Of a stretch of 24,188 nt of DNA, positions 1,661 to 23,893 are shown piece after piece. Origin of the DNA: a virus; the IMG/VR virus record IMGVR_UViG_3300006802_000556, positions 1 to 24,188 of that record; one strand, written 5' to 3'. Under the pieces are notes generated by a model, which had not been told where the DNA came from, did not search any database, and saw nothing but the letters and a program-made list of their open reading frames with translations. Every line of letters begins with the position of its first letter. Position 1 is the stretch's first letter. A program made the position numbers and the translations under genes.

Positions 1661-1988
1661 GGCTGTTTTTTCGTTCTAGGACTTCAGCAAGAAGCTCTTC
1701 CAAGCGTTTCTGGTTTTGTAGCTCATCGCCACCAAACGTCTCTCGTCCTAGCTCACCCTTCTTCATCCTAGCAATGCGCTCTAAAACCTTACATTGCTCT
1801 AACACGGCCTGTGCGTGGTGTTTCTGCCAAACTTGCTTGGCAATTGCGTCCTTTGCGTGCCAGCCAAAATCAGGCATTTTTTCGTTCATGAGTTGCTGTG
1901 TTCTGAGTAGCGCAGCGTCCCATGCGTTTTCACCTATTTGTCTGATTGTATCTCTATCAACCTCATCAACATCCATTCTATGAACCAT
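1647..1988 (-). CDS. probable terminase small subunit
   Basis: A 113-residue, charged, largely helical protein lying between the tail fibre and terL, the position of T7 gene 18 (small terminase). The middle (about residues 25-75) is helix-rich with Trp, Lys and His; the C-terminus is Glu/Arg-rich. I see no diagnostic motif, so the name rests on position, size and the 14-nt overlap with terL. An AGGAAGGA purine run lies about 12 nt before the ATG at 1988; an in-frame ATG at 1976 is an alternative start. The role would be recognition of packaging-start DNA and regulation of the large subunit. Confidence 0.6.
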   Translation of the reverse strand: MVHRMDVDEVDRDTIRQIGENAWDAALLRTQQLMNEKMPDFGWHAKDAIAKQVWQKHHAQAVLEQCKVLERIARMKKGELGRETFGGDELQNQKRLEELLAEVLERKNSRGDS

Positions 1989-2004
1989 CGTTCAACATTC
2001 CTTC

Positions 2005-3873: not shown

Positions 3874-3884
3874 ATTCGTAATCC

Positions 3885-3900
3885 CTTTTATGTATTTATT
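3885..3900 (-). promoter_or_regulatory. late-promoter-like element before the tail fibre
   Basis: Reading on the minus strand: AATAAATACATAAAAG, ending 11 nt before the fibre ATG. The ATAAATAC core (3892-3899) is 18 nt from the start codon and overlaps the stop codon of the gene upstream. Four virion genes share this layout, and no -35 hexamer is recognisable. It resembles the T4 late-promoter core TATAAATA. Confidence 0.65.
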
Positions 3901-6544
3901 GGATTAACGAATTTCTGGTATCCATGATGAACTGACCGTAAGGGTTGAAAGCTTCATTTCCTATGCGCTGCTCACGATCCTTGTTTAGCCTAGCTTGCGC
4001 TTTACGATAGGCATCTGGGTCCATGTATTCTTGTAGGGCATCCGCAAACAGCATTTTATAGAGTGCTTTTGTCTGCCACAGATTTTGTCCTGGCACCTGC
4101 CGCAAGCTCCATTGTGTTAGCTTGCTCATGCGCTTCATAAGCTCTGCTTCCGTGTTGTATTTTGGTTCAACAATTCCAAATTCACCTAACAGTGCCGCAC
4201 CTCCTACACCTATGCTTTCAGCAACAAGGCTAGATGCTGTGTACATGTCCATGAACAACGGACCTATTACGGATTTGAGCGCATTTTTCATTTCTGGTTT
4301 TTCACCTAGAAGCAGACGCGAGAGGTTTTCTCCGCCGCTTTCCATAAAGACATCTGTGAGTAAACCAAACGGTGAGGCCAGCACAAACGCTCGCGTCCAT
4401 AAATCAATGCTGTCTAACGCATACGGTTGTTTTCCAGCTGCCATCTGCTGTGATTGAACGACAACAGCGCCCATGAGTGTTCCCATAGCCGTCAGCTGCG
4501 CAATCGTAGCGACCTTTTGGAACTTGGTTTGTGTATCATCGTAAACAGCGCGACCCAGAACCTTGCGTGTGAACGTCAACGGAAATTGCTTAAACTGTGA
4601 GAGTGTTTTGATGACAGCCTCAGTGTTTGTGCCCGCTTGCGTCATCCAAGCGGCATGCTCCACATCACGCAGTGACGGGCTTATGATTGCTGTTTCTACA
4701 GCATCCTTGAACCATGCTGAAAATCCTTCTCTTAGGGTGCGGTCTTGAATGGCAAAGACATCGAAACGGCCGCGTTCGTCATTCATTTGTTTTGTGAGCG
4801 TTTCCCAGTTTTGCTGAGTAATCTTAAATCGCTCAAGCGATGCCTTGAAACGAACGTCCAACTGATCCCATGTGCGCGAGGCATCGAGCAACCCGCCAAT
4901 CTCTTTTCTAAACAGAGCAGTCACGCCACTGCGCATCATGTCTGTCCAAAGCTCCATGCCGCTTATCTTCATCACGAAGTTCGAAGCATTGCTTACCTTC
5001 CGTTGGACGACATTCATGCTGTGCCAATCATCGAACATCATGAACCTGTCCTGTAGCGCCCCCATCATTCCATCTACGCCTATGTTTAGACGTTGCGCAT
5101 ATTGCCGTGTCTGCTGATCTGTAAATCCACTGACCACGCTATCTATGTTCCGCATGAAGCTGTTGCCATACAGCCGTGTGACAACATTGATCATCACAGG
5201 CACATCCATGATGGCTGTAAGCATGGCACTGCCAAGCTTGCTTGCTACTTCTAATGAACGGCCTGTGCTTAAAACAGATTGAATCCGTAGTCCGTCTGGC
5301 ACTTTGGGGCTTGCTGTAAGGCGATCAAATGTGTTTTGAACCTTGCGCCATTCGCGTGTCTGAAACACGCGCTCGTTGCCCGCTTGGCTCTCACGAATGC
5401 GCTTTTGTATTTCTTGCCAGTTACGCATCCAATCTGGCCCAAGCATCTGCGCTATTGCGATCTGTTTGCTGGCATATTTAATCTGCCCAACAATCGTACC
5501 CATAAAATCGCGTTCGCCAAACGCATTGTTCAATTCGTTCCAGCTAGCGCCGTCTTTAAATTTAATTCGTTCAGTTATGTTTGAGTTCTTACCATTAGCG
5601 TTGACGTTTTCAACTACGGTATCCCAATCTATGTAGCCCTGCGTGTCTTTTAATGAGTTGTAGACTTGCTGCGCTATTTCCTGTCGCTCCATGGGATCAA
5701 TTGCGTTATCCAGCCTATCTGAGAAAAACGAGATAAACTCTGTCTCGCCGTTGTCGCCGCGCTCAGCAATCCAGCCTTTGATACGCTGCCAATTAAAGCT
5801 TGGCATAAGGCTTTTACTAGAATATGGAATTTTTCGCCCAAGCTGATTAAGGCGTAGGTTCATTTGCCCAAGCGCATCGTTGATGATGTCGCTGACAATC
5901 TGCGCTTCCTTGTTCGCGGTAAGATATTTTTTATGGTTAAAATCTGTTTGGTTTCTATGTAGTTCAATAATTAGGTCATCAACAAATTGCCCATCGTTAA
6001 ACAGTCTGGAAACCTTTGCTTCTGGTATGGCGTCGTAAATTCGACCCACAATCAGATTGTTAAAATACTCAGCGAAGACCCCGTTCTGCGCCTCTTCTAG
6101 CGTTAGCCCTATTTTAGTGTTGTCAGCAGGGCGAGTAAGCAAATCGCGTAACGCTTTCACTAGGTCCAAAGCTTTTGGAGCATCGACGTTTTGCGCAGCA
6201 ACTTCTCTGGCGGATGCTAGTACACTTATCACTGCGCTTTCGTTTCGATACGAAGCAATGAACTTACGCTGCTGCTCTTTCACCTCTTGCGTAATGTGCT
6301 TTTCTAATATCGCATCCAAACCCGTGCGTAACGCTCCTACCTTTTTCTCGCTAGATGTGAGTGCGCTATCAACTTGCCTTACAGCAGAAATGTCGACTTG
6401 ATCCCATCTTGAAACACCAATGTTATCCAGCGCCTTTTGCCAGCGCCCAATAAGGTTAGTTACATCGTCCCACTGCGGCTTTTTCTGCGAGTAATTAAAT
6501 GTATCTAAAACCTTGTAAAATTCTGCTCTACAGTCTCGCGCCAT
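3896..6544 (-). CDS. large internal virion/ejection protein (gp16-like region, C-terminal part)
   Basis: An 882-residue protein between the 606-residue ejection protein and the fibre, where T7 places gene 16. It is mostly helical and charged with long amphipathic stretches. Hydrophobic or small-residue segments occur near residues 700-725 (TAMGTLMGAVVVQ) and 780-800 (IGVGGAALLGEFG), as expected of proteins that form a channel through the cell envelope during DNA ejection. The last 60 residues, with MDPDAYRKAQARLNKDREQR and NPYG, look like a conserved virion-protein tail. No lysozyme or transglycosylase motif was seen. It begins 3 nt after the preceding gene, so they are cotranslated. The gp15/gp16 label is by position. 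Confidence 0.75.
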   Translation of the reverse strand: MARDCRAEFYKVLDTFNYSQKKPQWDDVTNLIGRWQKALDNIGVSRWDQVDISAVRQVDSALTSSEKKVGALRTGLDAILEKHITQEVKEQQRKFIASYRNESAVISVLASAREVAAQNVDAPKALDLVKALRDLLTRPADNTKIGLTLEEAQNGVFAEYFNNLIVGRIYDAIPEAKVSRLFNDGQFVDDLIIELHRNQTDFNHKKYLTANKEAQIVSDIINDALGQMNLRLNQLGRKIPYSSKSLMPSFNWQRIKGWIAERGDNGETEFISFFSDRLDNAIDPMERQEIAQQVYNSLKDTQGYIDWDTVVENVNANGKNSNITERIKFKDGASWNELNNAFGERDFMGTIVGQIKYASKQIAIAQMLGPDWMRNWQEIQKRIRESQAGNERVFQTREWRKVQNTFDRLTASPKVPDGLRIQSVLSTGRSLEVASKLGSAMLTAIMDVPVMINVVTRLYGNSFMRNIDSVVSGFTDQQTRQYAQRLNIGVDGMMGALQDRFMMFDDWHSMNVVQRKVSNASNFVMKISGMELWTDMMRSGVTALFRKEIGGLLDASRTWDQLDVRFKASLERFKITQQNWETLTKQMNDERGRFDVFAIQDRTLREGFSAWFKDAVETAIISPSLRDVEHAAWMTQAGTNTEAVIKTLSQFKQFPLTFTRKVLGRAVYDDTQTKFQKVATIAQLTAMGTLMGAVVVQSQQMAAGKQPYALDSIDLWTRAFVLASPFGLLTDVFMESGGENLSRLLLGEKPEMKNALKSVIGPLFMDMYTASSLVAESIGVGGAALLGEFGIVEPKYNTEAELMKRMSKLTQWSLRQVPGQNLWQTKALYKMLFADALQEYMDPDAYRKAQARLNKDREQRIGNEAFNPYGQFIMDTRNSLIQ

Positions 6545-6547
6545 TGA

Positions 6548-8368
6548 TTACCCTAACAAACACACATACGCAGCGCGGAGTGCTTCTTTTTGACCATTGA
6601 GGTCATTAGCTGCCAATTCCGCTTCGTCCAGTAGACTGTGTAAAGTCCTATCTTCTGGAGAAATCCGCGTTCTTAAATTATCTATCATTTCTCGCATATC
6701 ATCCGCTGTGTTTACTGCCGCAACCATGTTGTCAGCAGCCTCGCTTACATCAGCAGCTGAATGCGTGTCGTATAGCGACCTAATGTCGTCCCATGCTTTT
6801 GCGAGGGTATCAAAATGGCTTGTCGCGACCTGTTCTGGTGCGTCAGTTCTTCTAACCGTTTCGTTGTCCAAAACAGCAGCTATTTTTGCTTGATCTGATT
6901 GGGACAACAGACCGTTAAAAAATTCATCGAGCTTATCGCGTTTTACAGATACGGTGCCTTCAACACCGTCGCTTATCTTGAACGTGATTTCATCCAGCGA
7001 TTTGTTTCTTCCTAGCGTTTCGAGGATTTCAGATTTTGCCCTAGCTAATGCTATTGTGGTCCCTTCGAAATTCGCTGCGCCTTGCTGTGGCGCTGAATCG
7101 AAAACAACGAAACGATCCTCGCTTACATTATCTGGCACCATGTCGCGCGACGGCAAAACGCGGACATATTCTTTATCTACAGTGTCGAGAAGAATGTTAG
7201 GGTCGATGATAGCGTTCTGGTTATTGGCTTTGTCCCAGATCGCTCCAACCTTGGTATCAAGGTCGAGCAGATTGCTTGCTTTATTTTCGCCTGCTAGCTC
7301 GTCGAAAATTTCCCTGTACCATTTAGACGCGACTAAACGATCCATTCTCGCGTTGCGTGTTAGCTTGCTGAGCGCGACGAACTGCTCTCGCGTCAGCGTT
7401 GATGCAAGATCGAAAAGGATTTGCTTTTTAGCTGTATCGTCCGCAGCCGCTTTGATGCGCTCGTTAGTGGTTTTTGCCACGGCTGCTAGATCAATGGGTT
7501 CTGCTGCGACTGCTTGGCTTGGCTGAGGTGTTGGAGGTTGCTCAGCAGATGATATGGCTTCCGTAGCTGTCGACGCGGGCAATGGCTCGTTAGCTGCCGC
7601 ATCTGCCGTTCGCGATGGTGCTGGCTCAACGGTAGGCGTTGCTCCATCTGTTGCGACCAATGGCGCTTGTGCTGCGTTGTCTGTTGATAACGGTTGGGTA
7701 GGCGACGCATCTGCTACAGGTTCAGTCTCAGGTGATTTGCGCTTGAGACGACGCCCAAGCACATTGCCAGCTCCGCCAAAAAGAAAGCCTAAGCCCGCAG
7801 ATACACCAAGATTCTGTGCGATTTCACTCGCGCCAAATTTTTCTTGGTAAACGTCTGCTGCTGCTGAGCGTAAAGGGGTCAAAGCAGTTTCAACAGCAAG
7901 GTTGCTAAGCGCACCGTATGTTGCTGCTGCCAATATTCTGCTGCCTGTTACTCGTAGCAGCGTGACACCCACGCCAGCTGGCAACGCGACCCAATTTACA
8001 GGATCCAAAAACCCTACGCCCATGCCACCTATAAACCCACCTAATTCCCCTAGCCCTGTGGTGCGTTCATGTAGGCGAGCAAATTCGTCATTGTCGTCAT
8101 GCCGCTGCGCCATGTTTTGCGCCCAATCCCATGTGAGGTCTGGGCGATATTTTAATTTAGGTCTCCAGTACGGGCTGTTTTTCCAATCGTCTTCGCTGAT
8201 GGTTGGATCAGATGTGAATTGCTGCGCGTAATCCCGCACTAGATTAAATGAAAGGTCCTGGACACCTTCCTCCGCACCCAGTCCAATGCCGCCAAAGAAA
8301 CCAATCTTTTCTGCCTGTGCTTGCGGAATAGCGAACGGATTTAAATTGTAAAGATCAAGCGTGCTCAT
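6548..8368 (-). CDS. internal virion/ejection protein (gp16-like region, N-terminal part)
   Basis: A 606-residue protein in the ejection-protein cluster. Residues of about 100-205 contain two Gly/Ala-rich hydrophobic stretches (LGGFIGGMGVGFLDPVNWVA and LGVSAGLGFLFGGAGNVLG), each suited to membrane insertion. A Pro/Ala/Thr-rich, low-complexity linker covers roughly residues 215-290. The remainder is charged and helical. T7 gp16 is a single chain of about 1,300 residues; here the same place is occupied by this gene plus the 882-residue gene. The N-terminus lacks the transglycosylase domain known from T7 gp16. Spacing is 8 nt from the upstream gene and 3 nt to the downstream one. Confidence 0.72.
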   Translation of the reverse strand: MSTLDLYNLNPFAIPQAQAEKIGFFGGIGLGAEEGVQDLSFNLVRDYAQQFTSDPTISEDDWKNSPYWRPKLKYRPDLTWDWAQNMAQRHDDNDEFARLHERTTGLGELGGFIGGMGVGFLDPVNWVALPAGVGVTLLRVTGSRILAAATYGALSNLAVETALTPLRSAAADVYQEKFGASEIAQNLGVSAGLGFLFGGAGNVLGRRLKRKSPETEPVADASPTQPLSTDNAAQAPLVATDGATPTVEPAPSRTADAAANEPLPASTATEAISSAEQPPTPQPSQAVAAEPIDLAAVAKTTNERIKAAADDTAKKQILFDLASTLTREQFVALSKLTRNARMDRLVASKWYREIFDELAGENKASNLLDLDTKVGAIWDKANNQNAIIDPNILLDTVDKEYVRVLPSRDMVPDNVSEDRFVVFDSAPQQGAANFEGTTIALARAKSEILETLGRNKSLDEITFKISDGVEGTVSVKRDKLDEFFNGLLSQSDQAKIAAVLDNETVRRTDAPEQVATSHFDTLAKAWDDIRSLYDTHSAADVSEAADNMVAAVNTADDMREMIDNLRTRISPEDRTLHSLLDEAELAANDLNGQKEALRAAYVCLLG

Positions 8369-8376
8369 TCATGTAG

Positions 8377-10962
8377 TTAACGCTTCTCGCGTCGTGCGCG
8401 GACGACATCGTAGCGAACCTTTCGTGCTTCTATAGCGGCTCGCATCAATGTCTCTAAAGGTGTAGCTGTAGCACCTCCTGGTAATATGAGTTTTTTAGCA
8501 TGAGCTGCGAATGTTTTTTGTAGAGCCTCAAATTGCTGATAGTTTCGTATATCTAAAGCATCAAAATTACGAAGGTATTTTTCTGTCCAGCTTGGAACCG
8601 CACCAGACCGCAAAATAGCAGATAAAGCTTGAAGCTGTTGTTGCTCATATAGCTTGTTTGTGATTTGTGTAGCGGCTGGGTCATACGCATCCTGTGCGTC
8701 TAGGGCAGATTTGTTATCAGCGTATAATTTGGCGAGGTATTTTTCTGGATCATTTACGGCACTATCAGCCTTGATGGTTTTTGCCTCCCATTTCGATAAG
8801 TTGGGTTCTACTTGAGTAGCCTGATGAAGCGTATATGAGGAGAGATCGACTTGTAGAATTTCTGGTCTGTCAGCATTTCTTCCGCGTATTTTTAAAGGAA
8901 TTTTGTTGGGCGAAAAAAACATAAGTTTGTTGCCTACAATCTGCGGCGAAAACTTGTCCATTGAAACATCTGTGATCTTGATGTTTGGTGGCAATAAAAT
9001 TCCCAGCGCATTCCAGTTCTGCGCTATTTCGCTAATTGCTTTACGAAGATTGCCTTCATCTATGTTTGCTGCCACAAGGCGTTTTTCCCCATTTTCAAGC
9101 GTTATGATCTTTCTGCCCGTGGTGACCGCATCAAACGCCATTGCCACTGGATCACTTGCTTTGCGCTCTTGGTAAGCGAGCGTAAGTTTCAAAAAAGCAT
9201 CACGGAGTTGCTCGCGCTGAACAATATCAAACGAGAGCGCGTTTCCCATTTTCTTGTTAAAGGCGGAATTTAGGTTGTCTTTAGATGTTTTATCAGCTCT
9301 CTTTTCGAGGTCCGTGCCCTCTTTCAAAATCATTAAAATGTTTGCGCCAGCTTGTGGCGTAGCTGCGCTTGAAACAGCGTAATATATGCTGTCTAGCTTC
9401 ATACGCTCCATTACGTCAGCAAACATATTCTCACCAAGCCGTTTGCGTAAGGCCTGTATCTTTCCTGCTTGGTTCATTGGATCACTGTCATCAAGGATGT
9501 CTGCTGCGTAACCCTTGACTGTTTCTTTGCTCATTGGCGGGACGCTGTAGATTGGTATTCCTGCTTTTTCGCTTATCCAAGTTCGCGCCCTTATAATTTC
9601 GTCCTCATCTTTCATGTCGAATTTGGGAGCGTCTGCACGTTTGAGCAAATTCCACGGATCATCGTTAACAAGCTTTTTTGTGGCGACTACGAGTTTTGAA
9701 AATCCCTCTAATTTCGCCTTCTCCCATTCTATCTCGTCACTGGTTATCTTGTTTTGTCCGTAGAGTTCCTTGGCGCGATTAAATTTTTCTGTAGCAACTT
9801 GGAGCAGAGCTGTTTGTTCTGGAACACTCAGAGGTGAAATGGAATTAAGGAAATTTCCGTATTCCTGCGCTCTCGCGATTTTTGTTTTCCACGCGTCATA
9901 CTGTTCTGGCTTTAGTTTGCTTTGCGCTTCAGCAAGCAACTGGGTTTGATCGCGCTCCGTGCCTATCCCATCCGTCAGCGCATGGACTGTTGCCTGTAGC
10001 TCGTGGTTCAATCTGGCGACATCAGCTTTATCCGTTTGGGTTTCTGAATTGTGCTGCTGCCGCAATAATGAAATGGTTTGCCTGTAGGATTCTGGAGTAA
10101 GTGTTTCGCCCCGCATGTTTTTTGCTTTTGGGTCAAACTGGTTGCGCTCTGCTTGATCTAAAAATTCTTTTCGCTGCTCGCGTGTTAAATTAGAAAAATG
10201 AGCGGCATACTCACCCTTGCGAATGTTTTGCTGTATGGTCTGCTCAAGCTGTAGGGCCCGCGCTGGATCACGTTCTTTTACGCGATCAACCGCAGCCCGC
10301 ATTTCTGCGATGTAATCGTCTATAAATTTTCCCGTGTTGCTGTCGTAGGTTTGTCCGCTAGCCTGTAAACGATACAGATCGTTTCCAAGCGAGCTAATGC
10401 GGTTTTCTAATGACTGGCCTTCTGCCTTCAGCGTAGCTGCTACGGCTTTTTGGTTCATGCTTGTTAAAACGCGATTAAAGCGTTCTGACGCATCTAGCCT
10501 AAATGACGCCTGTAAATGGGACGGGATCGAATTAAAAAATTCTGGCACGAAGCTCTTATTCCAGTTGTCCTTAAATTCCTGCGGCTTGTTGGCATAAGTT
10601 TGCTGATACTGGCTAAGGGCATCGTCTAGCTCTTGTTTCTTTTGAAGCGCAAATACCGCATTTGCTCCCTTAGCGTAAGCCGCGCTTGATACGCCAAAGG
10701 TCGTTTTTGGAGCCACGCTCTGAACATATGAATTTTCGATAAACGCATCTGGTGAATTGTCTTCATTAGCGACTGCCGCAGCTTGCTGATCTTCAATGCC
10801 TTTTTGATATTGCTCTTGCGCTACAAGCTCGTCCGCCTTTTTTCCAAGTTGTTCAGATAGGTTGATCCATATAGAGCTTGTATCGTTTCCAACAAAATAG
10901 CTTGGCTTTGAGCCAGAAAATAATCCGCTTTGGGTCCGCTGTACTTTATTAACAGGCATCAC
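8377..10962 (-). CDS. internal virion/ejection protein (gp15-like)
   Basis: An 861-residue, almost entirely helical protein rich in Gln, Lys and Glu, with no signal peptide or clear membrane segment. It follows the gp14-like gene and overlaps it by 4 nt (ATGA), exactly where T7 gene 15 lies (gp15, about 750 residues). T7 gp15 forms part of the internal core and the periplasmic DNA-ejection tube. The N-terminal region (MMPVNKVQRTQSGLFSG) is polar and unstructured; residues of about 60-450 are predicted helical repeats. Assignment is by order, size and composition; no catalytic motif is visible. Confidence 0.75.
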   Translation of the reverse strand: MMPVNKVQRTQSGLFSGSKPSYFVGNDTSSIWINLSEQLGKKADELVAQEQYQKGIEDQQAAAVANEDNSPDAFIENSYVQSVAPKTTFGVSSAAYAKGANAVFALQKKQELDDALSQYQQTYANKPQEFKDNWNKSFVPEFFNSIPSHLQASFRLDASERFNRVLTSMNQKAVAATLKAEGQSLENRISSLGNDLYRLQASGQTYDSNTGKFIDDYIAEMRAAVDRVKERDPARALQLEQTIQQNIRKGEYAAHFSNLTREQRKEFLDQAERNQFDPKAKNMRGETLTPESYRQTISLLRQQHNSETQTDKADVARLNHELQATVHALTDGIGTERDQTQLLAEAQSKLKPEQYDAWKTKIARAQEYGNFLNSISPLSVPEQTALLQVATEKFNRAKELYGQNKITSDEIEWEKAKLEGFSKLVVATKKLVNDDPWNLLKRADAPKFDMKDEDEIIRARTWISEKAGIPIYSVPPMSKETVKGYAADILDDSDPMNQAGKIQALRKRLGENMFADVMERMKLDSIYYAVSSAATPQAGANILMILKEGTDLEKRADKTSKDNLNSAFNKKMGNALSFDIVQREQLRDAFLKLTLAYQERKASDPVAMAFDAVTTGRKIITLENGEKRLVAANIDEGNLRKAISEIAQNWNALGILLPPNIKITDVSMDKFSPQIVGNKLMFFSPNKIPLKIRGRNADRPEILQVDLSSYTLHQATQVEPNLSKWEAKTIKADSAVNDPEKYLAKLYADNKSALDAQDAYDPAATQITNKLYEQQQLQALSAILRSGAVPSWTEKYLRNFDALDIRNYQQFEALQKTFAAHAKKLILPGGATATPLETLMRAAIEARKVRYDVVRARREKR

Positions 10963-11378
10963 GCATACCTATCAGCTACTGATGCTGTGGTTTTAAGAAG
11001 CGTACCTACCGCTGCCATGTTTCCACTACGCTGCGCATTTGCAGCGCTCGCCTGTAAAGCGTTGCGTTCTTGCTCACTGCTAAAATTGTCGTTGAATATG
11101 TCGTAGTAAGAGTTACGAGCGGTTTCAGCCATAGTAAGCGGACCGCTGCCAGTAAGCGGGTTTGTCCCTAACGCACCAAACTGCGCCGTTTGCGTGCTTA
11201 TGTTTCGTTTCATAGCCTTTAAGCGATCGTCTTCACGAAGTGCTGCGTTGGTCTCTTCTACAGCCGCTTGGTAACGATACATATTTGCTTGCGCTTTTCC
11301 CTGCTGTGCTTGATTTACAGCGCCAACAATGCCAGCTGCCGCTGACGCAACCGCGGCTATAGTCGCAAATTCACACAT
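10959..11378 (-). CDS. internal virion protein B (gp14-like)
   Basis: A 139-residue protein starting with a Cys and an Ala-rich hydrophobic segment (residues 5-25, ATIAAVASAAAGIVGAV), followed by a Gln/Ala helical region and a Ser/Ala-rich C-terminus. A small hydrophobic-N-terminus protein just before the big ejection proteins is typical of T7 gp14, which forms the outer-membrane pore during ejection. ATG at 11378 is preceded by AGAGGA and directly by a late-promoter-like element, which starts a new transcription unit even though the gene overlaps its upstream neighbour by 8 nt. Confidence 0.8.
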   Translation of the reverse strand: MCEFATIAAVASAAAGIVGAVNQAQQGKAQANMYRYQAAVEETNAALREDDRLKAMKRNISTQTAQFGALGTNPLTGSGPLTMAETARNSYYDIFNDNFSSEQERNALQASAANAQRSGNMAAVGTLLKTTASVADRYA

Positions 11379-11850
11379 TTGCTAAATCCTCTTTATTGTA
11401 TTTATTGAATTTAAAAAAAATTGTACGGCCATGAGGCGTCGTTCGATATGATTGGGTTTCTTCAAACCCAAGCCGTTTTAGCCATCGACGGCTTTGGTGA
11501 TGACCTTCCCAAACCTCTATAACAGGTGTGAGATACCAATATTTTTTGCGGATATAATCAATGTAGGCTTTTGCTGATCGCGTAATTTGAAACCAATTCT
11601 GTGCGACTTCATCTGTCCCATAGAAATTAAAACGAATTGTCGTTGGCGTGGTGACATAGCCAAAAACACACACTGGCCGTCCATTCACCATTCCGCACAA
11701 TGTTTCGTCGCAAGTGCAACTGCGGTCCCAGGCGTTTTCTGGTGTCCAACCAGATATGCCTAACTCTACTCTGTCGTAATCACGTAGGTGGCTTATGACA
11801 AAACTTAGCTGTTCCTTGCTAAGCTCAGAGAACGAGATTTCCTCACGCAC
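11371..11850 (-). CDS. GNAT-fold virion-associated protein (gp13-like)
   Basis: A 159-residue protein between tail tube B and the gp14-like gene, matching T7 gene 13. The C-terminal stretch GHHQSRRWLKRLGFEETQ (about residues 115-132) matches the last helix-strand signature of GNAT acetyltransferases. The usual acetyl-CoA loop (R/Q-x-x-G-x-G/A) is not evident, so it may be a structural member of the fold rather than an active enzyme. It carries several Cys and Trp in the first half (WDRSCTCDETLCGM). It overlaps both neighbours by 8 nt, implying coupled translation. Confidence 0.75.
   Translation of the reverse strand: MREEISFSELSKEQLSFVISHLRDYDRVELGISGWTPENAWDRSCTCDETLCGMVNGRPVCVFGYVTTPTTIRFNFYGTDEVAQNWFQITRSAKAYIDYIRKKYWYLTPVIEVWEGHHQSRRWLKRLGFEETQSYRTTPHGRTIFFKFNKYNKEDLANV
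11391..11406 (-). promoter_or_regulatory. late-promoter-like element before the gp14-like gene
   Basis: Minus strand AATAAATACAATAAAG; the core (11398-11405) lies 19 nt before the ATG at 11378 and the element runs straight into the AGGA ribosome-binding site. It lies inside the 3' end of the gp13-like coding sequence, so its conservation is not explained by intergenic AT content. Confidence 0.6.
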
Positions 11851-14065
11851 GGTATCGCGTATCTACCGTAATGCCGTTAACTTGAAATGGTAGTGGCTGA
11901 TCGCTTAGCAAAACCAAATTTTGATTATTGCCAAGACCCTTCAAATTTACCGATAAAATAGCATCTTGCGCTTGTTGTGGTCCGTCTAGGATGTTTGTTC
12001 CAATACGGTTGTTTAGAACCTTGTATCCATCAACCTTAAATTCTTTTGTATTGCGCACGCGGACCTCAGCAGACACTTTTCTAAACCGCTCTCCGCGCAC
12101 AAGATTGTTGTTTATCGCAAAGGCAACTGGCAGCGTTTGGACCTCAGCGTCATAAGATAAACCTATGGCGACCGCTTGTGCTGGTACGGCTGTTGAAAAA
12201 TTGCCGCTTCCGTCTACGCTTACTGGCTCATGAACAAGCGCATCAGCGATATTTGTCGAAGAGATGGACACAACGCAAGATACGGTCTGCCCTGCGAGGG
12301 TTTCAGCGTTGTTCCAGCTTGTCGTACCGCCAGCGTTGTTAGTTCCGCTATAAAAATGATCTAGGTAAATTTCCTGCTCTGTAAGCTTTTCAAGAAATGT
12401 CGTAAGTGTTGAACCATCGCTCGCAATGCGATCTACAAGCGCATACAGAGCATTATCAACTTCTATCACACGCCTAAAATAACCATCTGTGGTAAATCTG
12501 CTGAAACCAAAAACCTCTTTTTCCGTGTCAATTACTAGGCACACCGCAGTTCCGTCACCGTTAACGATTAAAAGCAAATTGCCTTGTGAGTTTCCATAGT
12601 TGGCAATGTAAGCCATATCAATTGGATTATTCACAAGGTCCTGAGAGAGCGTTGTAAGATTGCTAGACTTGTATTGAAATACGTCACTGTCATACTCAAT
12701 CATCTGTATGGTTTTTCCGTCGTCAGTTATGAAAACTATGTTTTTGTAAAATTCTACAGGTTGCGTAGTATCAATTCCTGGGCTGTTTTGTTGTGCTACG
12801 CGTCCCGCTGAAGGCGTTACCGCGTCGTCTCCAACAATTACGAAATGGCTTTCGTTGGTAAAGATGTGAAGGTCGTTTCGCCCTACAATGGAACGAATTG
12901 TGTTCACGTTTTGAGTTCCTATTTCCTTGGTCCAGCTGCGATCATCGTCTGCTGTGTCTGTGTCAAAATTCGTGTAGTCGCCACTGCTGCTAGCAACAAT
13001 GGTTTGTGGCAGGTCGCGTGTGCCACCAAAAATCAGCCTTGATTGATGCTGTGTGACGGTTCTGGGATAACCATGTGCCGCACTCCATATTTCTTCCGCC
13101 CAAGCGTTGTCTGCGCTCGTTGTCCCTAGTGAACTTGTGTCTAAAAAATTCAGTACGGTGCCTGTCACCTGTAATCCACTGTTTACAGAAGATATATTCA
13201 CATAGCCGTCGTTGACTCGCAGACGCACGCCTACATGGTCAGCAGTCCAATAAGATGCTGATCCAGACAGCGTGAGAGTGACCGTACCTGTTGTTCCACT
13301 TGGTGTGAGCGATTGCGTGATGTTGAAACGTTCAAATGGAATGCTGTCGAAGGTCATTTCTTCAAGCGTCCAATCGTAATGCGTTAAGCCACGCATTAGC
13401 TGATACGGCGGAACATCCTTTTGAACCAAAAAAAGCGCGTCAAATTTTTGACTGGTTTTAAGTTCCGCTAATTGCGCTTCTGTATATGGACAGGTAATTA
13501 GATTGTATGTGGCGGCCGTAAGCCCAAGGGCTGTGTTTGCGGTGCCGCTGCCAATAACAATAGCTTGCTGATCGCCTTGGTTCCAAAGCTGTAGATAATT
13601 GTCTACAGCTTGCGCTACTACACCTGTCGTAGCTGTGTAAGCGTTTATCTCATCAACTATTGCCGCAAGAGCCAGAGAGCCACTAAAGGTAACCGTTGTC
13701 CCATTTATGATTACCGTTTGGCTTGTTGTGACTGTAGGTGACTGCTTCTTGCCAACAACATAAACATCATACGCGCTGTCAAAAACACTTATATCCGAAA
13801 AAAATATTTCGAAGCTCTGGTTATAAAAAACGATCACATATTCTTGTTCTGCGCTAAATCCAAACTTGACCAAGCGCACAGCGTTGGGTGTAGCGCCCAC
13901 TAATCCAAACCCACGGCGTTTGATCAAGCCGCCCTGCGGCAAGACCATCATGTTGTTTACATATTTCGCGCCGCTGGCATATAACGCTATATCGCTTCGA
14001 AAATCTAAGTCCGCGCCTATTTCACCGCGTGTAAAGGTGAACTGCGTCGCCCTCATTCTCGCCAT
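11843..14065 (-). CDS. tail tubular protein B (nozzle, gp12-like)
   Basis: A 740-residue beta-rich protein with many Thr, Ser, Asn and Gly. The N-terminus is characteristic of this family: FTRGEIGADLDFRSDIALY, then YVNNMMVLPQGGLIKRRGF. A later QSRLIFGG and SSSGDYTNFDTD stretch (about residues 340-375) is also typical. In T7-like phages gp12 forms the distal nozzle of the short tail, joins gp11 and carries the fibres. The ATG at 14065 is one base after the stop of tail tube A. Length is close to T7 gp12 (794). Confidence 0.92.
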   Translation of the reverse strand: MARMRATQFTFTRGEIGADLDFRSDIALYASGAKYVNNMMVLPQGGLIKRRGFGLVGATPNAVRLVKFGFSAEQEYVIVFYNQSFEIFFSDISVFDSAYDVYVVGKKQSPTVTTSQTVIINGTTVTFSGSLALAAIVDEINAYTATTGVVAQAVDNYLQLWNQGDQQAIVIGSGTANTALGLTAATYNLITCPYTEAQLAELKTSQKFDALFLVQKDVPPYQLMRGLTHYDWTLEEMTFDSIPFERFNITQSLTPSGTTGTVTLTLSGSASYWTADHVGVRLRVNDGYVNISSVNSGLQVTGTVLNFLDTSSLGTTSADNAWAEEIWSAAHGYPRTVTQHQSRLIFGGTRDLPQTIVASSSGDYTNFDTDTADDDRSWTKEIGTQNVNTIRSIVGRNDLHIFTNESHFVIVGDDAVTPSAGRVAQQNSPGIDTTQPVEFYKNIVFITDDGKTIQMIEYDSDVFQYKSSNLTTLSQDLVNNPIDMAYIANYGNSQGNLLLIVNGDGTAVCLVIDTEKEVFGFSRFTTDGYFRRVIEVDNALYALVDRIASDGSTLTTFLEKLTEQEIYLDHFYSGTNNAGGTTSWNNAETLAGQTVSCVVSISSTNIADALVHEPVSVDGSGNFSTAVPAQAVAIGLSYDAEVQTLPVAFAINNNLVRGERFRKVSAEVRVRNTKEFKVDGYKVLNNRIGTNILDGPQQAQDAILSVNLKGLGNNQNLVLLSDQPLPFQVNGITVDTRYRA

Positions 14066-14066
14066 G

Positions 14067-14642
14067 TTAGTACCTCACGCGAACATAGCGACTTGGCGCT
14101 AGAGCGTCTTGCTGCGGGTTTTCTCGATTGTCCAACCGTCGCGCTTCAACACGCTGCTGCGCAAGTTCTCCATCTAGCCGCTGCTGGACAGTTCCTATTG
14201 CTATAATTGCTTCTTGTGCCGCCACAGCAAGCTCAAGCGCCAACAGATGAACAAAGTAGGCTGGCAAGGATTCTATTGCTGCGCTTTGAACATACTTCGA
14301 AAACAGGCGCGTCGTGTTTGTGTATATTTTTCGCTTTTGGATTTGATAACCGTTAACCGCAGCACCGCCTGTATCATAGAAACGCACTGCGTTTAGGTAA
14401 TCTGCTGGCAGCGTGTACGAATAAATGTAATTAGGGTCTGTGGGCGTTCCTACATCCTGCGCAAGCTCCACGTCTCGTATAGCAAAATTCCAATCTGCGC
14501 TTGTCAAAACTTTTTCGTAAATAGGATCGAATAGAACGCTCATTACCTCCGCTTCGCGTGTTTGCTCGTCTAGCGAGGTAATAGTTGGCGCGCCCAGTCT
14601 TGTAAGCGCAATGTTGATAATTTCGATATTTGTTTTTGCCAT
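14067..14642 (-). CDS. tail tubular protein A (gp11-like)
   Basis: A 191-residue tail adaptor protein that links the portal to the nozzle. Family features are the opening NIALTRLGAPTITSLDEQT, the helical stretch with ADWNFAIRD, the YTLPADYLNAVR segment and a long C-terminal helix rich in Ala, Gln and Arg. Length matches T7 gp11 (196). I chose ATG at 14642 because GGTGAG sits 5-6 nt upstream; a GTG at 14651 in frame would overlap that ribosome-binding site. The start is preceded at 17 nt by a late-promoter-like element. Confidence 0.92.
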   Translation of the reverse strand: MAKTNIEIINIALTRLGAPTITSLDEQTREAEVMSVLFDPIYEKVLTSADWNFAIRDVELAQDVGTPTDPNYIYSYTLPADYLNAVRFYDTGGAAVNGYQIQKRKIYTNTTRLFSKYVQSAAIESLPAYFVHLLALELAVAAQEAIIAIGTVQQRLDGELAQQRVEARRLDNRENPQQDALAPSRYVRVRY

Positions 14643-14652
14643 GCTTCTCACC

Positions 14653-14668
14653 GTTTAATGTATTTATT
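14653..14668 (-). promoter_or_regulatory. late-promoter-like element before tail tube A
   Basis: Minus strand AATAAATACATTAAAC; core 14660-14667, 17 nt before the ATG at 14642. It lies directly downstream of the capsid-operon terminator, so a promoter is needed here and the site is well placed to be it. Confidence 0.7.
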
Positions 14669-14675
14669 TAATATG

Positions 14676-14708
14676 AAAAAAATAAGCCCGCATCGCTGCG
14701 GGCTTATT
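14676..14708 (-). terminator. rho-independent terminator after the capsid/decoration genes
   Basis: A perfect 12-bp stem (14681-14692 with 14697-14708) and a 4-nt loop, followed on the minus strand by a T run (14682 down to 14676). It ends the capsid and decoration transcript, as the T7 terminator does after gene 10. Confidence 0.93.
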
Positions 14709-14733
14709 CGTTTGACGGTACTAGAGGTAATAG

Positions 14734-15117
14734 TTAGTCAAACGTACGCTTAATGGTTAGATTGACGGTCACTGCGCCAGTAGCTGAACCACCAGATGTT
14801 GTTAGGTCTACTGTATCATCAGCACTGTATTCCTTACCAGCACCATAGGCGCCAGACATGCGGAATAGACCAGCTGTGTTTGCTGTTGTTGCTGGAACGA
14901 AACCGTCAGCATCACTTCCGTCGCCCAGTGTCAACTGAACGCCAGAACCAAGAGCGGCTGTGTAGATTGAAGCATCTACAACCTTTTCGCCCTTTTTAAC
15001 GGTATACATCTGGACCACTTCGCCAGCACCCTCGCCAGCAAATGTGAAAGCAGAGGAAACGGTTTCCAGTAGGTAGCCGTCTTTAACAGCGCTTGTAGTG
15101 TTATCTTGTGTAGCCAT
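14734..15117 (-). CDS. probable head decoration/fibre-like small virion protein
   Basis: A 127-residue protein rich in Gly, Ala, Thr and Val with alternating polar/hydrophobic residues, expected to be all-beta. It has no Cys and only short helical stretches. It sits 11 nt downstream of the major capsid gene and before the shared terminator, so it is made with the capsid protein. Small beta proteins in this place are often head-decoration or cement proteins; I do not recognise a specific family. AAGGAG lies 7 nt before the ATG. Confidence 0.7.
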   Translation of the reverse strand: MATQDNTTSAVKDGYLLETVSSAFTFAGEGAGEVVQMYTVKKGEKVVDASIYTAALGSGVQLTLGDGSDADGFVPATTANTAGLFRMSGAYGAGKEYSADDTVDLTTSGGSATGAVTVNLTIKRTFD

Positions 15118-15128
15118 TTATCCTCTCC

Positions 15129-15953
15129 TTATAGTCCGTTCACTTCGACGCGGTAAACGCCGTTAGTTTGAATTGTGACAGCGCCTGCGCTCATTTCACC
15201 AAGCACGATGTCTGCGTTATGGGCAGGGGAGTAGTTGATCTTTGGTGTGATATCTCTGCCAATGCCCAAACCTACGCTGCGTTGTGCGTAGAAGAAACCG
15301 TAGTGGTTTGTTGCGCTTGCCTTGAAACTGTCTAGCTCTGGAACCTCGATGACGTTGATTCCGTAAACAGTTACGTTACGACGCATGCCATCAAAGTTGC
15401 CTTTTGTGCTGTAGTCGCCGCTTGCTACTTCTGTAAGCTGAAGCACATCGCTGAAAATTGCTGGTGTTACAGCAAAGTTCCAAACTTGTGCGCTTGACCA
15501 GTTTTGCTCGCCTGCGATTTCGCGTAGGCCAGCCATGCGGGCCTTGCTCATAGCAGCAGCTGAACCTTCACTTGTGTATGTGGTGTTCATTGCTGTGATG
15601 ATTTCGTTGTCCATGTTTCTGTTCAACTCAGCAACGATACTTTCTGTGTAGCCCTGACGAAGTGAAATGTTAGTCTTGAATTCGTCCAAGCTGTCGATGA
15701 AGCGATATGCTTCATAGTTGTTTAGCGTAGCTGTTGCTGAACTGTGTGCGTCGCCATCGCCGCTTAGAATGCTGTGGCGTGCTCTGTTTTTTGTGGATGA
15801 TACAGTTGAAATGACGGGAAATTTAACCTGACTTCCAACAACACCCATATTTGTCCAAACTGTTGAGCGAAGCATGCTTTCTGATTGCTGTAGGGCATGT
15901 GAAAATTCGCTCTGGTATTGGATAATAAATGCGTCTGCTATATCCATAGCCAT
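15129..15953 (-). CDS. major capsid protein
   Basis: A 274-residue protein directly after the scaffold gene and before the decoration gene, the place of the HK97-fold capsid protein in T7-like phages. Features consistent with that fold are an N-terminal helix with QYQSEFSHALQQSESML, a central segment ERNLIKE-free but with INTERNAL long spine helix (ELNRNMDNEIITAM, about residues 109-122) and a beta-rich C-terminus. It is shorter than T7 gp10A (345). ATG at 15953 has AAGGAG 7 nt upstream, but that ribosome-binding site is one arm of a perfect 8-bp inverted repeat. A second in-frame ATG lies two codons on. Name rests on order, size and fold-like pattern. Confidence 0.85.
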   Translation of the reverse strand: MAMDIADAFIIQYQSEFSHALQQSESMLRSTVWTNMGVVGSQVKFPVISTVSSTKNRARHSILSGDGDAHSSATATLNNYEAYRFIDSLDEFKTNISLRQGYTESIVAELNRNMDNEIITAMNTTYTSEGSAAAMSKARMAGLREIAGEQNWSSAQVWNFAVTPAIFSDVLQLTEVASGDYSTKGNFDGMRRNVTVYGINVIEVPELDSFKASATNHYGFFYAQRSVGLGIGRDITPKINYSPAHNADIVLGEMSAGAVTIQTNGVYRVEVNGL

Positions 15954-15960
15954 TTGTTTT

Positions 15961-15992
15961 CTCCTTGGTTAATTTAATTTCCTGCCAAGGAG
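15961..15992 (-). promoter_or_regulatory. hairpin sequestering the capsid ribosome-binding site
   Basis: CTCCTTGG (minus strand, 15992-15985) is perfectly complementary to CCAAGGAG (15968-15961), with a 16-nt A/T-rich loop. The second arm contains the Shine-Dalgarno AAGGAG of the capsid gene. Formation of the hairpin in mRNA would hide it. Confidence 0.7.
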
Positions 15993-16049
15993 TTGTCGTT
16001 CTAGAGCGAGGGCTAAAAAGTTATCGTCGCTATCAAAAGGCTCTTTGTC

Positions 16050-16065
16050 AGTTATTATATTTATG
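16050..16065 (-). promoter_or_regulatory. diverged late-promoter-like element upstream of the capsid gene
   Basis: Minus strand CATAAATATAATAACT, one base off the common core, in the gap between scaffold and capsid genes. It lies about 100 nt before the capsid ATG, not 17-20 nt, which gives room for a leader with the ribosome-binding-site hairpin. Confidence 0.45.
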
Positions 16066-16068
16066 CGG

Positions 16069-16821
16069 TCAGCGTCGTTTCGATATCCGTTGCGATAGCT
16101 CTGCGGCTTTTTTGCGGACCTTATCGCCTTCTGCGTTCTGTATGTAGTAAAGTGGATTGTTGATCGTTTCGCTTAGTTGCGTTTCTAGGTCTGCTACTGG
16201 CATTTCGTCAGTTCGCATAACAGACGGCCCTTGAGTGTTTTTAATCATTTGCCAAAGCAGCTTCATCCCTGCTGCGGTTTTAAGCGGACTGGTAGAAAAA
16301 ACCTCTGCTGGTAGTTTGTTTTCATACATGTAATCCGCAACCTCTTGTAATCGCGCTTGGGTGTTGCTGCCCCAATCCGTTTCTAACTTGGTAAGTTCTG
16401 CTTCTTGATCATATGGCGTACCAAACATTTCCATCACGTTATTAAGGCGACTGCCATACATACGCAAAATTTCTGATGCGGCTTCGTTGCTGATGCGATG
16501 CTTTTTGAACAGACCTGTAACTTCTTGCTCTTGTTCCTCGCTCTCCCATACAAGCTTCTGCTCTTCAAATACGTCAGTAAAATTGTATGTTTCTGGCGCT
16601 CTCGCATGTAGAGTTTTTTCAAGCTCGCTGTTGCTTTTCAAAATATCATTCAGCTTCACAACTCCAGTGTCTTTATCAATAAACTTTTCTGGAACTGTGC
16701 TGATGTCAAAAGCCTCTAGCTTGTAGGGGTCTGGCTGCGTTGGAACGCTGATGTCGTCTTGAGGTAGCGTTTCTTGCTGAGGCTCTACGCTGCTTATCAA
16801 TGTATCGTTTGCTTCAGCCAT
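16069..16821 (-). CDS. capsid assembly scaffolding protein (gp9-like)
   Basis: A 250-residue acidic, helical protein directly before the major capsid gene. The N-terminus is disordered and Gln/Pro-rich, the middle is strongly acidic and helical, and the last 30 residues are basic (VRKKAAELSQRISKRR), the usual capsid-binding tail of scaffolds. T7 gp9 is about 307 residues. I chose ATG at 16821 because AGGAG lies 7 nt upstream; an in-frame ATG at 16836 would place that ribosome-binding site inside the gene. It overlaps the end of the preceding small gene by 8 nt. No protease gene is visible, so the scaffold probably leaves intact. Confidence 0.85.
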   Translation of the reverse strand: MAEANDTLISSVEPQQETLPQDDISVPTQPDPYKLEAFDISTVPEKFIDKDTGVVKLNDILKSNSELEKTLHARAPETYNFTDVFEEQKLVWESEEQEQEVTGLFKKHRISNEAASEILRMYGSRLNNVMEMFGTPYDQEAELTKLETDWGSNTQARLQEVADYMYENKLPAEVFSTSPLKTAAGMKLLWQMIKNTQGPSVMRTDEMPVADLETQLSETINNPLYYIQNAEGDKVRKKAAELSQRISKRR

Positions 16822-17032
16822 TTGCGCTCTCCTCATGAGCCGCGTCTTCTGCTAGCTTTCTGCTCTGTCTTTGGCTGCGTGTTTTTTCACGCATCACCTC
16901 ACGCTGAATTTCTTCCTGTAGCTCTTGCTTGCGTTCTTGGACTTTTAGGTATTTGTCCAAAAGCGCACCAGCTTCTTTGTGAACTTTTTCGTGTTGCTCA
17001 TATAGTTTTTTCAATTCTTCATTCATGTTCAT
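16814..17032 (-). CDS. small coiled-coil protein of the head operon, function unknown
   Basis: A 72-residue highly charged protein, nearly all one helix with heptad-like spacing (KKLYEQHEKVHKEAGALLDK, then an Arg/Gln/Glu-rich stretch). It lies between an unknown 87-residue gene and the scaffold. Two starts compete: ATG at 17032 overlaps the upstream stop (ATGA), favouring coupling, while ATG at 17026 has AAGGA at a 6-nt spacing. A head-assembly accessory role is likely from position only. Confidence 0.7.
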   Translation of the reverse strand: MNMNEELKKLYEQHEKVHKEAGALLDKYLKVQERKQELQEEIQREVMREKTRSQRQSRKLAEDAAHEESANG

Positions 17033-17292
17033 TCCTTTGTTAGTTCCGCATTCACGATGCGTAAAATTTGCTCAACAAAATCACGCTTGCCTTCACGAAA
17101 TACGCAAAGGTTTGGATTTAGCTCATCGACTTTGATGTAGGGTTTGTCAGCCAGATCACATAGGCTGTAGATAATCGCATCGCCATAGGCCCCTGTAAGC
17201 ACATGGAGCCAAGCGTCGTGGATTTCTTGTTGTGAGTACCAGCGATCAGATTTTGCGAGAACCTGCGCCTTTTTGACTGTTTTGTAGCTCAT
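17029..17292 (-). CDS. small hypothetical protein of the head operon
   Basis: An 87-residue protein with mixed helix and strand composition, starting MSYKTVKKAQVLAKSDRWYS and containing IHDAWLHVLTGAYGD. I do not recognise it. It begins 15 nt after the portal gene and ends in an ATGA overlap with the next gene, so it is surely cotranslated with head genes. It could be a virion or assembly factor, or an unrelated host-interaction protein. Confidence 0.7.
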   Translation of the reverse strand: MSYKTVKKAQVLAKSDRWYSQQEIHDAWLHVLTGAYGDAIIYSLCDLADKPYIKVDELNPNLCVFREGKRDFVEQILRIVNAELTKE

Positions 17293-17307
17293 TCATTCGT
17301 TCTTTCA

Positions 17308-18843
17308 TTATGCGTTTCCTCCTTGCTGAAGCATTGGACCTAAAGCTTCGCCTAGCTGCTGTAACGCAGGGCTTCCTTGAAGGGCTTGTGCTGCTCCTTG
17401 TAGCTGCTCTTGGACTTGCGGAGTTAAACTAGGCTTCATGTCGTTTATGAGGCTTGGTGGAAAATTGGTTTTTTCAAAAATAAATTTTACAAGCTCGTGG
17501 ACGTTTACCATCTGAAGCGCATGCTGCGAAAACGGCTGTAGCATTTGGAGGGTCTGGAGAATGTTTGTCACTTGCTCCAACTCCAGACCCCTACGCACCA
17601 CACTCTCCACCACGATGTGTAAGGGACGACCTTCTACCTTGAAATCGCCCATCAGGCCGTTCTTGCCGCAAAGGCGAACGGTGTTGAGGATGATCTCGCG
17701 TAGGAACTCGATTTCAAGACGCAGCGCAGCTGGCGCTATAAGCCTAAAAAATTGTGCTTGAAGGGCTGTGATCGCAGTAGCGACGACGCCTTTGACGTTA
17801 TCTGCTGGTGGGAGCTGCTCTGCGAACAGGCGCTGCCGTACATGCCCCTGAAGGTTTGAAATGTCGTTGTAGGCAATTTGGACATTTCCAGGAAAGTCGA
17901 TTGGGCGCAGAGCGTCGTTGCGTGAACTGATGATGATGCTGCCAGCTTTGAGTTGCTTGCCTTCAAGCGTGGGGTCTTCTGTTTGCCAAGCTCCTCGCGC
18001 AGCAAACTCGCTCGCGTTTAGAAGCTGCTCCACCATCGTGTTGAGGGTTTTGATGTCAGGCAAGCTTTGACGCACTGGACTGTCTCCCCAACAGTCGCCT
18101 GTGGCCTTGCGCCAACGGAACACAGTGAACGGCTTATGCCAGGTGTCGTAGCTGCTGAGTTCCGTCCAATCCTTTTCCAGATAGATTGCGTAGTGGCATG
18201 TGCCGTCCTTGTTGGGCAGCATGGCCTCAACAAGCGTCACTTGCTCATCTGCGTTCTTTGTCTCTAAGTCACGCACCCATTGCGGAACCTTGCCGTAGTT
18301 GTAGGTGACAGCACGCACGGGCACAGAATGGCTGCGGAACACAGTGTCAACGATGCCGCTTCCGTTCTCCATAATGGCAAGCTGCCCAATTGGAACGCTC
18401 ACGTAGTTGACGCCGTTCTTCTTTTCGTTGAGTTCGATCGCCATACAGCCCACTCCGCTCACCACGCAGTCTGTAAGCGCCTCCGCAGCAGCGACGTAAA
18501 AGTTGCTGTCATGGATAATTTCCCAGAGCGTCTGGTTCTCACGCTCTAGCTGTTGCGTCTGATCTGGCGCCACGCCCATATCAAGCACACTCTCGCGCAC
18601 CTTGATCTCTGCCCAACGACTGTTGTGCGGAATCAGAAAGGTGATGAGGTTGCTGACGAGCGTGTTGACTGCGTTAGGCGCCGTCGCATCGAAAATCAGC
18701 GTTCTGTCAGCTGCTTGCTCGTTGTGCTTTTGCGGAGACACCTGCGGAAAGGTGTAGGCGTAGGCATCGTCGATCTCAGAAGCTACATGCTGCTTCTTGC
18801 GCTTGGCAGACGCATAACGCTCTTTGACGTTAGCGTATTTCAT
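17308..18843 (-). CDS. portal (head-tail connector, gp8-like)
   Basis: A 511-residue protein that forms the dodecameric DNA channel at the capsid vertex. Family features: the opening YANVKERYASAKRKKQHVAS, the FIDATAPNAVN-like segment LIFDATAPNAVNTLVSNLI (about residues 48-67), WAEIK, a KDWTELSSYDTWHKPFTVFR stretch, then the crown-region helices and a Gln/Leu-rich C-terminus (LQGSPALQQLGEALGPMLQQ). Length fits T7 gp8 (536). The ATG overlaps the preceding stop (TAATG), indicating coupled translation. Confidence 0.93.
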   Translation of the reverse strand: MKYANVKERYASAKRKKQHVASEIDDAYAYTFPQVSPQKHNEQAADRTLIFDATAPNAVNTLVSNLITFLIPHNSRWAEIKVRESVLDMGVAPDQTQQLERENQTLWEIIHDSNFYVAAAEALTDCVVSGVGCMAIELNEKKNGVNYVSVPIGQLAIMENGSGIVDTVFRSHSVPVRAVTYNYGKVPQWVRDLETKNADEQVTLVEAMLPNKDGTCHYAIYLEKDWTELSSYDTWHKPFTVFRWRKATGDCWGDSPVRQSLPDIKTLNTMVEQLLNASEFAARGAWQTEDPTLEGKQLKAGSIIISSRNDALRPIDFPGNVQIAYNDISNLQGHVRQRLFAEQLPPADNVKGVVATAITALQAQFFRLIAPAALRLEIEFLREIILNTVRLCGKNGLMGDFKVEGRPLHIVVESVVRRGLELEQVTNILQTLQMLQPFSQHALQMVNVHELVKFIFEKTNFPPSLINDMKPSLTPQVQEQLQGAAQALQGSPALQQLGEALGPMLQQGGNA

Positions 18844-19046
18844 TACAGCTTGTTAACTCTATTACCTAGCAACGTGTCCATGACACCAGAAAAGCCTCTG
18901 CTTTGAAAAGCTGAGCCACCCGTCTTTGACGCCAACCGTTTGCGTTCTTTAGACGCTGCGTCTTTTGCTGACGCCTCGCGTGTTGCTACAGCCTGTACTG
19001 GGCTTGGTGGGGGCGGCGGCGCAGATGGTGATGAAAAAGCACACAT
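18843..19046 (-). CDS. small Pro-rich protein preceding the portal, function unknown
   Basis: A 67-residue protein starting MCAFSSPSAPPPPPSPVQAV, with a polyproline run at residues 9-14, a basic middle (KERKRLASKTGG) and a Gly/Phe-containing tail. It looks disordered. Short Cys-then-Pro-rich proteins often precede the portal in marine T7-like phages (from memory, not searched). First gene of the late block: AAGGAG precedes ATG at 19046 and a late-promoter-like element lies 20 nt upstream. Portal starts on its stop codon. Confidence 0.75.
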   Translation of the reverse strand: MCAFSSPSAPPPPPSPVQAVATREASAKDAASKERKRLASKTGGSAFQSRGFSGVMDTLLGNRVNKL

Positions 19047-19059
19047 ATCTAATCTCCTT

Positions 19060-19075
19060 GTTTCATGTATTTATG
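19060..19075 (-). promoter_or_regulatory. late-promoter-like element at the head of the virion operon
   Basis: Minus strand CATAAATACATGAAAC; core 19067-19074, 20 nt before the ATG at 19046 and followed by AAGGAG. It is the first site of the leftward virion transcription unit. Confidence 0.65.
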
Positions 19076-19812: not shown

Positions 19813-20127
19813 ATGTTTATATTCACTACAGCATCGCTAAATCACAAGTACAATCGCACATTCAACGTAGGCAACGACGAGCTAGAAAACGAAATTTACG
19901 CTGCTCTTTTGCGGCAGCGTGAAATGGGCGAAGCAAATTTCAAGCGTGAGGTTGACGACGCAGTGCTTATATCGCAGTCGCCCTATTTCGATAGTTTTCC
20001 TGCGGAGACGTTTTTTACACTGCTAGTGCGGCAAGCCGTCGCCTACAACACAAACCTGCCTATCGTTCGTAATCCATCCGCTAATCCCTCTCACAACAAT
20101 GCGGCCTGTGTGTCGCGTGCTGCCTAA
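19813..20127 (+). CDS. hypothetical protein upstream of the DpdA-like gene
   Basis: A 104-residue protein with ATG at 19813 and AAGGAG 9 nt upstream. The first 80 residues look folded (MFIFTTASLNHKYNRTFNVG, then helical DELENEIYAALLRQREMGE), and the last 25 are polar (Asn, Ser, Pro). I do not recognise it. Its stop overlaps the start of the DpdA-like gene (TAATG), which has no ribosome-binding site of its own, so the two proteins are made in linked amounts and may act together. Confidence 0.72.
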   Translation: MFIFTTASLNHKYNRTFNVGNDELENEIYAALLRQREMGEANFKREVDDAVLISQSPYFDSFPAETFFTLLVRQAVAYNTNLPIVRNPSANPSHNNAACVSRAA

Positions 20128-22313: not shown

Positions 22314-22471
22314 CGCGCACTGCCCCTAAACGAAAAAATTGCTCGCAGAATTTTTCACGCGCCCCACCTAAATTTTTTTTTCGAAACCCGTGGGTGCCCT
22401 GATTTTAAGCGAGCCTTCAGCAAAGAACTCTGGATTTTGGAGCTGATGGTACCTCCAAGCTCGTCGCTCGC

Positions 22472-22606: not shown

Positions 22607-22613
22607 CAACACG

Positions 22614-23604: not shown

Positions 23605-23629
23605 ACGCACGCACATACCAAGCAGCAAG

Positions 23630-23869: not shown

Positions 23870-23893
23870 TAATGCGCAAATATATTGGCTAAT

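Follow-up and report, generated by a model that had tools for sequence, protein, structure and literature searches.

Gene organization of the window

The DNA analyzed here, which we refer to as ‘the window’, is an IMG/VR virus fragment of 24,188 bases. Its late-strand stretch (218–19046, minus strand) carries matches to PHROGs, Pfam and NCBIfam families. An earlier, sequence-only reading had taken it for a T7-like virion block, and this is supported for the virion block and the terminase, a T7-type large terminase whose profile match (NF033889, 229.5 bits) lies well above the cut-off of 150. On the right-hand side, plus-strand genes take over, among them one for a tyrosine recombinase (22999–23604). 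Behind it, a second gene begins (window 22999–24188 for the pair) that has a PPIase domain (PF00639) and resembles a bacterial peptidyl-prolyl isomerase; the fragment therefore appears to be the prophage end that carries the integrase. The window lacks most of the early region.

A short element ahead of the late genes

The element (A/C)ATAAATACA-N2-AAA(G/C) occurs in four exact copies, each ahead of a virion gene and all on the late strand. Written as MATAAATACANNAAAS, it matches exactly at 3885–3900, 11391–11406, 14653–14668 and 19060–19075 (all minus strand), and nowhere else in the window when up to two mismatches are allowed. None is expected by chance: 300 simulated sequences with the same dinucleotide make-up yielded 0 exact matches, and the claim that four minus-strand virion genes are preceded by the same element stands. 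The motif had been given as 16 bp long, and at these four sites it is exact, but the conserved unit is shorter, namely ATAAATA; the CA-N2-AAA tail is missing from a fifth site, upstream of the capsid gene (16064–16058, minus), which the earlier list of four, real as those are, had overlooked.

Among the −45 to −10 regions of 17 late genes, ATAAATA is the top 7-mer, found ahead of 4 genes; only TAAATAC and AAATACA, which overlap it, do equally well (4 genes each). Some 7-mer was common to at least four of seventeen 35-nt windows in 1.6% of random position sets, and so the enrichment test, taken alone, is modest. The window holds six copies of ATAAATA on the late strand and none on the opposite strand. 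The sixth late-strand copy (23868–23862), beside the bacterial-looking gene, is probably unrelated.

In bacteriophage T4, the late-promoter consensus TATAAATA spans −13 to −6, and the base at −13 is poorly kept among T4 relatives (PMC1524935); the late promoters of cyanophage S-PM2 read NATAAATA (PMC2984593). The sequence-only reading remarked on the resemblance of the core to the T4 late promoter; the core is in fact that of the T4 late promoters, in the variant NATAAATA. The start points given below use the −13 to −6 spacing of T4, which was borrowed as it stands and not tuned to the present data.

The rightmost putative late promoter core (19068–19074, minus; predicted +1 at 19062) lies ahead of the first late gene, a 67-aa open reading frame (ORF) that is followed by the portal gene. 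The next (16058–16064, minus; predicted +1 at 16052) lies upstream of the capsid gene, with a predicted leader of 99 nt. A third (14661–14667, minus; predicted +1 at 14655) precedes the gene for tail tubular protein A and stands directly behind the terminator of the capsid/127-aa gene pair, an intrinsic terminator (14680–14714, minus) seen in the sequence as a GC-rich hairpin with a T run. Ahead of the internal virion protein gene (10959–11378), the core (11399–11405, minus; predicted +1 at 11393) falls within the end of the preceding gene, and ahead of the tail fiber gene (3893–3899, minus; predicted +1 at 3887) it overlaps the preceding gene's stop codon.

Conservation among relatives

Relatives were sought in IMG/VR using the portal, capsid, tail tubular A, tail tubular B and terminase proteins as queries. 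Only L005, L008, L009, L010 and L011 were found, together with the near-identical L007, all of them 12 kb or less. L007 (99.9% identical) was left out of the counts; the other five, of 4–12 kb each, encode proteins 26–92% identical to those of the window, with the capsid ranging from 87% down to 27%.

Beforehand, a motif not kept at the corresponding places in relatives had been named as grounds for refuting the reading; ATAAATA is present at all 17 orthologous sites that can be examined in the six genomes, although these are not independent events since the relatives share common ancestry. The core precedes the tail tubular A gene in six of six genomes (the window, L005, L008, L009, L010 and L011) and the capsid gene in the same six. 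It precedes the internal virion protein gene in two of two, the orthologue being at 7465 in L008, and the 67-aa ORF in two of two, with the orthologue at position 13 of L005. For the tail fiber the count is one of one, as no relative reaches that far. L011, whose capsid is just 27% identical, retains both of its sites. The terminator just upstream of the tail tubular A core recurs in the same arrangement in the five relatives. On the opposite strand, ATAAATA occurs only twice in the six genomes combined. Immediately upstream of the core, the adjacent 12 nt are 42–58% identical at the tail tubular A and internal virion protein sites and 8–33% identical at the capsid sites, and a core that persists while its immediate neighborhood diverges points to selection on the core itself. 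We regard conservation in relatives, a matter of sequence comparison, as the decisive evidence that the element is real. A refined IUPAC version of the element was too strict and matched nothing.

Anatomy of the putative promoters

ATAAATA is common to all 17 sites, every one of them on the late strand, and these 7 bp are all that is invariant; a long (17–23 bp) polymerase-specific promoter is not found. By sequence, every one of the 17 conforms to the T4-late core (TATAAATA/NATAAATA) at −13 to −6. A −35 element is absent from all 17, in keeping with the earlier remark that no −35 box is shared: the best match to TTGACA is 2.9 of 6, against 3.2–3.3 at random places. Nor do the upstream flanks of the sites have any common element outside the terminator. 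With the T4 spacing, the predicted +1 is A at 14 of the 17 sites and G at the other 3, hence always a purine, and in L005, L008 and L009 it coincides with the start of the conserved capsid-leader sequence. Leaders of 10–13 nt had been proposed; T4 geometry gives instead 13, 14, 15 and 16 nt for four genes, besides the 99 nt of the capsid gene. These four short-leader genes also have an additional AAA near +1 in common; as the capsid sites lack it, this block does not belong to the core.

We read the ATAAATA elements as likely late promoters whose core is of the T4 type and whose positions are roughly those of T7's own promoters; promoter function is what we infer from comparative evidence that is, in our view, strong. 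Re-initiation would be needed in the late block because one site comes straight after a terminator. An alternative is that the motif acts in RNA, as a translation enhancer or processing site beside the ribosome-binding site. It does adjoin the Shine–Dalgarno sequence at four genes, and A-rich leaders can enhance translation, but upstream of the capsid gene it keeps, in all six genomes, a distance of about 100 nt or greater, and ahead of tail tubular A it lies directly behind a terminator. We consider a role of this kind highly improbable.

Comparison with known late promoters

The T4 late promoters, which are served by gp55, gp33 and the gp45 clamp, share with the present sites the ATAAATA core, an unconserved first base and the lack of a −35 element, as well as short leaders and a position ahead of virion genes, often right behind a terminator. 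They differ in that the host of the element here is a small, temperate, T7-like podovirus, in that genes for gp55, gp33 and the clamp are not found here (in fragments without the early region), and in the conserved AAA block around +1 ahead of four of the five genes. An IMG/VR pattern scan for a terminator followed by ATAAATA, 10–24 nt and ATGGC gave matches with similarly short leaders. Among the matches listed, gp23, the T4 major capsid family, was present in 23 of the 40 records tested, which marks terminator, ATAAATA and short leader as a habit of T4-like phages that is the same in this podovirus clade. The purine at +1 was not seen in the cyanophage-like matches of the scan, and it is thus weaker support than core and position. 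One podovirus match, G033, was set aside, its ATAAATA being merely the A/T-rich run-up to AAGGAG. Many marine T4-like contigs (L018, L019, L027, L028, L030, L031 and others) carry a nearly identical TTTTTGTATATAATA-ATAAATA-AAACATTT ahead of ATGGCAAGAAAAAG, a strongly conserved late promoter that overlaps a TATAAT-like box.

Phages outside the T4 group offer further comparisons. The middle and late promoters of phiEco32 (tAATGTAtA) are read by gp36, a podovirus phage sigma that uses a single −10-type element and starts transcription 6–8 bp downstream; early and middle genes are opposed to late genes (PMC8948821). Like the present sites, they belong to a podovirus and consist of a −10-type element without a −35, with the start 6–8 bp downstream (predicted in our case) and early and late blocks on opposite strands. 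They differ in core sequence (tAATGTAtA versus ATAAATA) and in belonging to a larger, lytic C3 phage, and no gp36-like protein was seen here. The late-gene motif of rV5 (TggTAaAAtA) is T4-late-like, in a phage without homologues of gp45, gp33 or gp55 (PMC3606486), although rV5 is a myovirus and its motif fits the T4 core less well.

T7 places its promoters much as the present sites are placed, including one before the capsid gene with a terminator behind. With T7 and LUZ100 the window shares a T7-type terminase, the order of the virion genes, a promoter upstream of the capsid gene, a terminator after it, and promoters within the late block. It differs in having a 7-bp core rather than a promoter of 17–23 bp, in that an RNA polymerase gene is not found here, and in that early genes diverge from late ones. 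In LUZ100 the phage promoters are 17 bp long; one precedes the capsid gene, which is followed by a terminator (PMC10134795).

HTVC010P-type pelagiphages and related RNA polymerase-less podoviruses have portal, capsid and tail tubular proteins 22–35% identical to those of the window and, again, no viral RNA polymerase. They differ in having no consistent ATAAATA ahead of late genes, as checked in eleven distant phages, and in that the terminase lies elsewhere in the genome. The ATAAATA system may accordingly be confined to the clade. Vibrio phage ZCVPP1 has plus-strand intergenic copies of ATAAATA, three of four abutting bidirectional terminators and the fourth directly preceding a start codon; we judged these to be due to chance. 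Skadi and other HTVC010P-type phages are described as dependent on host RNA polymerase, and a recent isolate paper records only sigma70-like sites, near replication genes (PMC10504331).

What might read the sites

Searches for candidate factors covered the window, its relatives (fragments without most of the early region) and eleven distant isolates. The gp55 family (phrog_234) was absent from all of these and positive in the T4 control and two T4-like contigs; sigma-70 region 2 (PF04542) was likewise absent, its controls positive. Family scans of the window's proteins gave no gp33 or gp45 clamp, in fragments that carry no replication genes. The single-subunit RNA polymerase family (PF00940) was absent from the window and from the relatives (again without most of their early region), and also from the eleven distant genomes with related virion proteins (22–35% identity), while the S-CBP1 control was positive. 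The distant genomes show that phages with related virion proteins commonly do without a polymerase of their own.

The absence of a polymerase there, with the positive control, speaks against the proposal that the missing early region encodes a T7-type single-subunit enzyme for which ATAAATA would be its own AT-rich promoter. In its favor, the mitochondrial RNA polymerase, a relative of T7's, reads a short AT-rich element, the terminase is of T7 type, and the sites are where T7 and LUZ100 place theirs, down to the pre-capsid one with a terminator behind (PMC10134795). Such promoters are long, however (17 bp in LUZ100), whereas here 7 bp are invariant and at the capsid gene the part downstream of them is lost, and we think this explanation unlikely. 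We give equally little credence to a host sigma, housekeeping or alternative, reading the sites by itself or helped by an upstream-bound phage activator. NATAAA has four of the six bases of the −10 box TATAAT, and many RNA polymerase-less phages use host promoters. Yet the last T of TATAAT has no counterpart in the conserved core, there is no −35, and in the tail tubular A copies the place for one falls within the preceding terminator; the upstream flanks have no element in common beyond the terminator. Moreover, the late promoters of a prophage must stay silent in lysogeny, which a host sigma alone would not ensure.

T4 gp55 is a phage sigma that acts on the host core at a lone −10-type element (PMC2988020). 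It is this precedent and that of phiEco32, together with the related isolates that lack a polymerase, that lead us to favor a host core directed by a phage factor, and from them we infer the identity of the reading factor. By analogy, we favor a mechanism closest to those of T4 gp55 and phiEco32 gp36. The early region, beyond the window, would encode a sigma-like factor; on the host RNA polymerase core, this factor would open the DNA at ATAAATA, and transcription would start about 6 nt downstream, at a purine. The output would be four messages with leaders of little beyond the Shine–Dalgarno sequence and one capsid message with a long leader. That the ATAAATA elements are −10-type, single-element late promoters of a temperate T7-like podovirus clade, used by the host core with a phage sigma-like factor, seems to us reasonably probable. 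For the fuller proposition, that this clade lost or never had T7 RNA polymerase and transcribes its virion genes from T4-late-type promoters at T7's positions, read by an undescribed small sigma-like protein, the chances appear evenly balanced. The narrower one, that gp55 with the clamp reads the sites, is rather doubtful.

In a small group of T7-like marine viruses, expression of the virion genes appears to be triggered by a short DNA signal of the T4 kind, which implies a viral factor that redirects the host RNA polymerase. If true, recognition of T4-type promoters functions, or has arisen, beyond the T4-like phages. Marine podoviruses without an RNA polymerase, the HTVC010P group among them, are very abundant, and to our knowledge how they switch on their late genes has not been described; the defined core of a putative late promoter from a related clade provides a concrete handle on the question.

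The predicted leader of the capsid mRNA

The predicted capsid mRNA leader (15954–16052, minus), of about 100 nt, is conserved in five genomes (the window, L005, L008, L009 and L010) and contains repeated AGCC...ACGATAACT segments. In one short stem, pairing survives two double-sided changes. Most single-sequence folds pair the Shine–Dalgarno sequence, with CUCC or CCUUU, and four of the five pair the start codon with the predicted 5′ end of the mRNA. Such pairing may control capsid translation; the folding beats that of shuffled sequences in only two of the five (z about −2), and we treat it as a lead rather than a result.

Other features of the window

An Rfam search returned only matches far under the families' gathering scores, and structures predicted without alignments for two plus-strand proteins were of low confidence and uninformative. 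A 420-aa protein (20127–21389, plus) has relatives of about 30% identity, unannotated there, in the jumbo phages PA5oct, Phosso and Vibrio 2.275. By eye it resembles tRNA-guanine transglycosylase/DpdA-type enzymes, and a family search gave no match. Ahead of the recombinase, non-coding DNA at 22400–22620 (plus) holds imperfect repeats around GCGAGCATG / GAGCATCTCACCCAAGC, possibly regulatory or origin repeats.
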